Assembly (NCBI GenBank): GCA_016782225.1
Contig: JADDOW010000065.1
Span: 1-34,157, forward strand
Length of the DNA: 34,157 bases
Direction: 5' to 3'
Source of the DNA: Nitrososphaeraceae archaeon
Lineage (GTDB): Archaea; Thermoproteota; Nitrososphaeria; Nitrososphaerales; Nitrososphaeraceae
Below, in pieces: positions 5,511 to 32,608 of the stretch. Numbering within the stretch: the first letter of the stretch is position 1; every line of letters begins with the position of its first letter. Made by a program: the position numbers and the translations under genes. The notes beneath the pieces were generated by a model. The model worked only from the letters and a program-made list of their open reading frames with translations. It had not been told where the DNA came from and searched no databases.

Positions 5511-5568
5511 AAATTTTTAAAATAAAATATCCCGCGGTAGCTCAGCCTGGTAGAGCTTTCGGCTGTAG

Positions 5569-5624
5569 TTGTTGGCAACTAATTGCTAACCAATATCAGC
5601 CTATCAGGCTTACATTCAGCAGTA
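5569..5624 (+). other. tRNA-Tyr intron 1 (anticodon loop, position 37/38)
   Basis: A 56-nt intron. A bulge-helix-bulge can be drawn: CTGT (5563-5566) pairs with GCAG (5619-5622), leaving three-nucleotide bulges A-G-T and T-A-A. Cleavage after the second base of each bulge joins G37 to A38 and restores a 7-nt anticodon loop. The intron contains an internal hairpin around 5567-5583 (TAGTTG...CAACTA) and a second short one (AGCC...GGCT, 5598-5610). Ends are inferred from structure. Confidence 0.8.
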
Positions 5625-5645
5625 ACCGAAGAGTCGCAGGCTCAA

Positions 5646-5676
5646 ACAAAAAATGAAATATCGTTTTTTGGAGCAA
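5646..5676 (+). other. tRNA-Tyr intron 2 (non-canonical, in T-loop)
   Basis: A 31-nt insertion in the T-loop. GCTC (5640-5643) pairs with GAGC (5671-5674), and CAAAAAA (5647-5653) pairs with TTTTTTG (5664-5670). AAA bulges sit at 5644-5646 and 5675-5677, a relaxed bulge-helix-bulge. Cutting after the second A on each side leaves the 7-base loop CTCAAAT between perfect T stems. The boundaries could slide by a few bases because CAAA is repeated at both ends. Confidence 0.8.
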
Positions 5677-5691
5677 ATCCTGCTCGCGGGA

Positions 5692-6418
5692 TATATACAT
5701 GCTGTTGTTGTTGTTGCTTTTTGCCTTTATGTTAATTGGTATGTGGCTCATTTTACATTCTATGCGATAATTTTTATTTGCGGTATTGGTAAGTGAATGT
5801 TGGGTAGAATAACAAGGTTTATCTGCCAACTAAAATTCTTCAGGACTATGATATGAATTTATCGTGAGTGTTCTAAGGATAATAATGAATCATTATCTTA
5901 ATTTTTGGGCCTAATTGATACTTTTTGTGTTGCATTAGGACAACTGGATCTATATTCAATTGTGTACGTAAATCTTATTTTAGTGAACATTCACGTATTG
6001 TCCTCGCTGCATTTATGCGCAGTGGGCATCTGCTTTCATCATGGCGGTCATAAATGATCCATATGACTAATTTTAATTGATTTAGTTTTCATTGTGTTTG
6101 TCTTTATCATCTTAAGCATATCATGATTTGAAATTAGAGAAATTTCGCCCCTATCTTCAACTTTTCCAAATGTTCGTTTGTATTGCTCATATCCTGCCTT
6201 CAATTGGCACAAAACCATATGATAAACAATCATTTGTCTAGCCAAGATAATGCGTTGTTACTTCAGTTAGACTAATCAAGGTATTTCTGATCGCAAAGGT
6301 TCATTAGTTTTAAAAATCCAATAACCCTTTACATTTGAATTTTAGATTTTGCGTTTTGTTTTGTGTCCAGTGTTTTCAGAATTCAAAAGAATATATTCGT
6401 TATTATGTGAAAATTAGT
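5692..6418. other. Intergenic stretch without a convincing gene
   Basis: No long ORF on either strand has recognisable protein character. A very short hydrophobic reading frame (5699-5770, 23 codons, five leucines in a row near the start and a terminal Arg) begins 8 bases after tRNA-Tyr, but it is too short to call. A small palindrome ATAATGA-A-TCATTAT lies at about 5884-5898. Minus-strand ORFs of 65-77 codons here show no family signal. Confidence 0.5.
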
Positions 6419-6490
6419 GATGCCAATGATGACGATGAAGAGCCGTCTGATTTTTATGCTAATGACGAAGATTATGAGTGCTGAGGCATC
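6419..6490 (+). ncRNA. C/D box sRNA (2'-O-methylation guide), likely tRNA-Met C34 guide
   Basis: The 72-nt segment has every element of an archaeal C/D box guide RNA in order. A terminal stem GATGCC (6419-6424) pairs perfectly with GGCATC (6485-6490). The C box is ATGATGA (6426-6432), D' is CTGA (6447-6450), C' is ATGACGA (6462-6468) and the D box is CTGA (6481-6484). The D' guide is 14 nt (6433-6446) and the D guide 12 nt (6469-6480). The D guide AGATTATGAGTG is complementary to a sequence containing ACUCAUAAUC, the anticodon loop expected of an elongator tRNA-Met. The D+5 rule places the methyl on C34, a modification known in other archaea to be sRNA-guided. The D' guide target is not identified. 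The same bases also read as an acidic peptide, which I regard as fortuitous. Confidence 0.85.
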
Positions 6491-32505: not shown

Positions 32506-32608
32506 TGGTGGAGGAGGTGGGATTCGAACCCACGAACCCCTGAAGGACGGGATTTCTCCTTGTAAAATCTTGAGTCCTGCGCGTTTGACCAGGCTACGCG
32601 ACTCCTCC
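32506..32608 (-). tRNA. tRNA-Leu (CAA) with 15-nt intron and encoded CCA
   Basis: On the minus strand a class II tRNA begins GGAGGAG at 32608 and ends CTCCTCC-A at 32509, followed by an encoded CCA (32506-32508). The D-arm contains TAGCCTGGTCAAA, typical of tRNA-Leu. The T-arm is GTGGG-TTCGAAT-CCCAC, and a long variable arm lies before it. The anticodon CAA is at 32572-32570. A 15-nt intron lies after position 37. The anticodon stem CAGGA/TCCCG has one A-C mismatch at the second pair. An ORF on the plus strand across this region is not a gene. Confidence 0.92.
32554..32568 (-). other. tRNA-Leu(CAA) intron
   Basis: A 15-nt intron at position 37/38. CTCA of the anticodon loop faces GGAG at the intron end (three pairs and one A-G), leaving bulges A-G-A and A-A-A. 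Cutting after the second base of each restores the loop CTCAAGA. It is near the lower size limit of archaeal tRNA introns. Confidence 0.75.

Follow-up and report, generated by a model that had tools for sequence, protein, structure and literature searches.

Box C/D sRNAs are an ordinary class of housekeeping RNA in archaea, and their k-turns depend on L7Ae for folding. One of their tRNA targets is the wobble base of elongator tRNA-Met, whose Cm34 is C/D-guided both in haloarchaea, by sR-tMet acting on the elongator pre-tRNA-Met (Joardar 2011, as cited in PMC4033218), and in humans (PMC6601510); a sequence-only reading of the present locus had likewise taken Cm34 of this tRNA to be sRNA-guided in other archaea. 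For Pyrobaculum, tRNA-targeting sRNAs are reported whose second guide has no target (Lui 2018, summarised in PMC7994747).

In the window, the whole 34,157-nucleotide stretch of DNA analysed, positions 6419-6490 are read with high confidence as encoding an archaeal box C/D sRNA that guides 2'-O-methylation of C34 of elongator tRNA-Met and of C2510 (E. coli numbering) of 23S rRNA (Table 1). With it, this soil ammonia-oxidising archaeon very probably directs methyl groups to the wobble base of tRNA-Met and to the ribosome near its catalytic centre. The locus was unannotated, as the sequence-only reading had it. No open reading frame of at least 60 aa overlaps 6419-6490, and no Rfam family reached its gathering score there. 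The haloarchaeal sR-tMet (RF02163) shares the box C/D architecture, the D-guide core UAUGAGUG before box D, the tRNA and the N+5 position, but scored 23.1 bits vs. a gathering score of 50; the remainder of the D guide differs (CCCUAUGAG vs. GAUUAUGAG), and the aligned Rfam consensus lacks the GAAGAGCCG D' guide. By its guide, the sRNA would function like sR-tMet while falling below the membership score. Archaeal sR41 (RF01126) has the architecture and the D-guide core UAUGAG in common (24.0 bits vs. a gathering score of 54), but its D' half differs and its consensus is without the rRNA guide GAAGAGCCG. Human SNORD97 / SCARNA97 act on the same nucleotide, C34 of elongator tRNA-Met, with the same fibrillarin-based chemistry (PMC6601510), but are eukaryotic RNAs of other sequence and size (SNORD97 model, 19 bits here vs. 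45). The best Rfam score was 28.9 bits, for the plant family snoR77Y; boxes and letters of the stem are shared with it, but the alignment has a 10-nt gap where the guide lies, and it was rejected as generic C/D resemblance. No description of this sRNA or of its target pair was found in the sources searched; guide RNAs of such kind are known.

Table 1. Coordinates of the features of the sRNA locus, with the basis of each assignment.
Feature	Position	Strand	Basis
Putative archaeal promoter, BRE/TATA-like AAAAGAATATATT	6385..6397	+	centre lies about 25 nt ahead of the sRNA 5' end
Box C/D sRNA gene, whole	6419..6490	+	anatomy, no overlapping ORF, conservation, covariance model
Terminal stem, 5' arm GATGCC	6419..6424	+	complementary to 6485-6490; covariation across 31 orthologues
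Box C ATGATGA	6426..6432	+	read directly; conserved in the 31-orthologue alignment
D' guide CGATGAAGAGCCGT, 14 nt	6433..6446	+	core 6437-6445 GAAGAGCCG, antisense to 23S rRNA CGGCUCUUC; G6442 (N+5) faces C2510
Box D' CTGA	6447..6450	+	read directly; invariant in the 31-orthologue alignment
D'-C' spacer TTTTTATGCTA	between D' box and C' box	+	read directly
Box C' ATGACGA	6462..6468	+	one deviation from RUGAUGA; conserved as TGA-N-GA
D guide AGATTATGAGTG, 12 nt	6469..6480	+	its core, 6470-6479 (GATTATGAGT), is complementary to the elongator tRNA-Met anticodon arm; G6476 (N+5) faces C34
Box D CTGA	6481..6484	+	read directly; alignment
Terminal stem, 3' arm GGCATC	6485..6490	+	pairs with 6419-6424; covaries

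The gene is intergenic and 72 nt long, with four boxes in the order C-D'-C'-D, two guides and a perfect 6-bp terminal stem, to which a seventh pair (T6418-A6491) can be added; it reads GATGCC / A / ATGATGA / CGATGAAGAGCCGT / CTGA / TTTTTATGCTA / ATGACGA / AGATTATGAGTG / CTGA / GGCATC. The boxes, the 12- and 14-nt guides and the stem of the sequence-only reading agreed with this layout base for base. When the box order C-D'-C'-D was written as a regular expression with archaeal spacings, it matched the two strands of the window once, at 6419-6490, and gave 0 matches in 300 first-order simulated windows. Four traits by which an archaeal box C/D RNA is recognised were found: ordered boxes with guides of about 9-18 nt, a terminal stem beside the C/D k-turn kept by compensatory change, a guide that pairs over at least 9 bp with a stable RNA and sets N+5 against the target nucleotide, and genes for L7Ae, Nop5 and fibrillarin in the genome. 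The fold proposed earlier as a check for paired k-turns was run on the isolated strand; its stability was not significant (z = -0.83), and it was set aside as uninformative because k-turns are stabilised by protein.

By DNA similarity, the gene occurred as one copy per genome in 15 of 15 genomes searched of its own genus, Ca. Nitrosocosmicus, and orthologues were present in 31 of the 61 relatives searched; genomes named as Candidatus Nitrosocosmicus and as Nitrososphaera are among the records that hold the double-guide pattern. When 31 distinct orthologues were aligned, TTATGAG, GAAGAGCCG and box D' proved invariant, as did parts of boxes C, C' and D; the D'-C' spacer varied freely in sequence and length. 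The terminal stem covaried (92% of cells paired vs. 33-48% in slid controls), with both sides changed in 5 of 7 pairs, which amounts to compensatory change. With a covariance model, matches were obtained in 183 of 250 genomes for the order and in 128 of 150 for the class, or 119 of 124 when good genomes alone are counted; the weakest matches may be to other sRNAs of the C/D kind. Complete genomes without a match to the model also occur in the order, e.g. G045, G059 and G211. In G045, the 23S sequence just before CGATGTCGGCTCTTC (L088) is entirely different from that of relatives and may be the end of an intron or insertion.

The organism's own genome encodes an intron-less tRNA-Met of the elongator type (L003; CAU call by ARAGORN), whose anticodon arm reads UUCGACUCAUAAUCGAA. 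Its loop is GACUCAUAAUC, the complementary sequence without which the sequence-only reading would not have stood. The core of the D guide pairs with ACUCAUAAUC of this tRNA through 10 Watson-Crick bp (-13.6 kcal/mol), and the fifth base before box D lies opposite C34, both as had been proposed. No equal all-Watson-Crick match to the D guide was found elsewhere among the recovered tRNAs, a set without identified initiator and Ile(CAU) tRNAs, either of which may be a further substrate; the sole longer run requires G-U pairs. The N+1 base pairs with neither target in this species. Among relatives whose tRNA-Met was read, the anticodon arm was unchanged, and the invariant D-guide core TTATGAG reaches the distant families f9, f13, f18, f21 and f22; in one genus with an altered D guide (GGTTATGAGT) pairing is kept through a G-U. 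In G032 and G025, a roughly 15-nt intron adjoins the anticodon loop in the elongator tRNA-Met gene (L144 and L145), and the unspliced ACTCATAATCT lengthens the pairing with the guide.

The D' guide, whose target the sequence-only reading had left open, was aligned to rRNAs and matched 23S rRNA around C2510. No 23S gene was found in this assembly by the Rfam LSU model or by exact pattern, and the target was therefore read from 23S genes of the same genus. There the guide matches UCGGCUCUUC, its core being antisense to CGGCUCUUC within the conserved 23S stretch CCUCGAUGUCGGCUCUUCC; two rRNA stretches from the genus, of about 8.4 kb, offer no better all-Watson-Crick match than the 9 bp so formed. 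The nucleotide faced by N+5, C2510 in E. coli numbering, is four bases past U2506 of the peptidyl transferase centre. Guide and target changed together: in family f9, all 10 genomes checked have CGGCUUUUCC in 23S rRNA, a change of C2512 to U, and the guides carry GGAAAAGCC or a close form (G-to-A), as read in 9 of those 10 and in one further f9 genome. In f2, f3, f4, f13, f18 and f22, CGGCUCUUCC in 23S rRNA goes with the guide GAAGAGCC (7 of 7 genomes with an exact 23S match). This covariation, which in f9 may be one evolutionary event, is the strongest evidence for the predicted D' target, and makes the family a clean case of guide-target coevolution. Helices 90-93 are a methylation hotspot in archaea (Dennis 2015; main text of PMC4644070), so that Cm2510 would be unsurprising in its place; no text naming Cm2510 was found in the sources searched, which covered PMC4644070 by its main text.

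The two guides have had different histories. The D' guide is kept, and D guides differ, in f2, f3, f4, f10 and f20 of the class and in f25 elsewhere in the phylum. In f25, an undescribed sRNA (L239-L246) shows the same D' guide, GAAGAGCCGT, ahead of its D' box at 8 of 8 loci read, together with an analogous terminal stem, but its D guide is unrelated (e.g. ..ATGGGGAAC..), so that a tRNA-Met C34 target is absent there. Persistence of the D' guide where the D guide has been replaced indicates that the rRNA guide is the more deeply conserved function; comparison of the guides suggests that targeting of tRNA-Met C34 is a common yet replaceable second one. The wider conservation of the D' guide likewise argues for a dual tRNA/rRNA guide and not for one of tRNA-Met only. 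In G051, the D guide GATCTTGAGT would fit the loop of tRNA-Leu(CAA) instead. In f4 (L201, L202), the 23S guide is retained with GAATATCGAG as D guide, and the tRNA target must therefore have changed.

It is tentatively suggested, with somewhat more doubt than belief, that this class-wide sRNA of ammonia-oxidising and related archaea is a modular guide, in which the half for 23S C2510 stays the same through much of the class and in one other family of the phylum, and the half for a C34 tRNA is exchanged from lineage to lineage (tRNA-Met CAU here, tRNA-Leu CAA in G051). If true, such a guide contrasts with the targetless second guide reported for tRNA-targeting sRNAs. Weak matches outside the class (f27, f34, f48 and f56), also with GATCTTGAGT as D guide, were rejected as orthologues and taken as other sRNAs. 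These C/D-like sRNAs (L247-L251) apparently target tRNA-Leu(CAA), to whose anticodon loop GATCTTGAGT fits at C34.

Retention of the D' guide beside differing D guides would also be expected of a real C/D sRNA selected for its 23S guide alone, the tRNA-Met complementarity being incidental or a contact without methylation. This is considered very improbable, as TTATGAG is invariant in the 31 orthologues and extends to the distant families while the adjacent spacer is free, and as N+5 falls exactly on C34, the position methylated through C/D RNAs in haloarchaea and humans. Slightly harder still to credit is a C/D sRNA that methylates tRNA-Met only and meets 23S rRNA by chance or as a folding chaperone; the pairing of only 9 bp with 23S rRNA in this species would suit it, as would the targetless second guides reported for Pyrobaculum (PMC7994747), but no part of the RNA is conserved as widely as the D' guide, which changes together with 23S rRNA in f9.

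That box-like words came together by chance in an AT-rich intergenic stretch, or that the locus is a decayed pseudogene, would accord with the lack of an Rfam match at gathering score. This has next to no probability: it is already contradicted by the comparative evidence, i.e. class-wide conservation, a covarying stem and guide-target covariation, and the simulated windows yielded nothing similar. An sRNA guiding methylation at both tRNA-Met C34 and 23S C2510 is thus the preferred reading.

For such an RNA, the genes of the protein partners are present. Fibrillarin and Nop5 are encoded side by side on the contig that carries the window (58.0-59.6 kb); a gene of the L7Ae family is located on a different contig. 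The candidate promoter AAAAGAATATATT is retained at the loci of the genus and the flanking upstream sequence diverges; this conservation and its likeness to an archaeal BRE/TATA point to a promoter role. Bacterial promoter and terminator scans were set aside as not applicable to archaea. The sRNA gene would probably be transcribed from this promoter of its own, L7Ae would bind the RNA at the C/D and C'/D' k-turns, and Nop5 and fibrillarin would be recruited to it. In the assembled particle, 2'-O-methylation would be directed by the D guide to C34 of elongator tRNA-Met, and by the D' guide to C2510 of 23S rRNA, a nucleotide of the strand that runs from the peptidyl transferase centre (U2504-U2506) to helix 90.

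Ammonia-oxidising archaea thereby gain one specific and testable predicted modification of a tRNA wobble base and one of 23S rRNA by the peptidyl transferase centre, and the sRNA adds a family absent from Rfam, for which a working covariance model is now at hand. Well-supported targets for both guides, tRNA and rRNA, in one deeply conserved sRNA are a departure from the pattern reported for Pyrobaculum (PMC7994747), in which the second guide is targetless.

Two tRNA genes of the window were observed in passing. At 32509-32608 (-), tRNA-Leu(CAA) has a 15-nt intron in the anticodon loop. At 5531-5691 (+), a tRNA gene (CCCGCGGTAGCTCAGCC... TCGCGGGA) with two intron-like interruptions was missed by ARAGORN and Rfam, and gave tRNA-Tyr(GUA) on trial splicing. 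A tRNA 5' half upstream of the sRNA recurs in a similar position in many relatives, and the neighbourhood of the sRNA is therefore syntenic.
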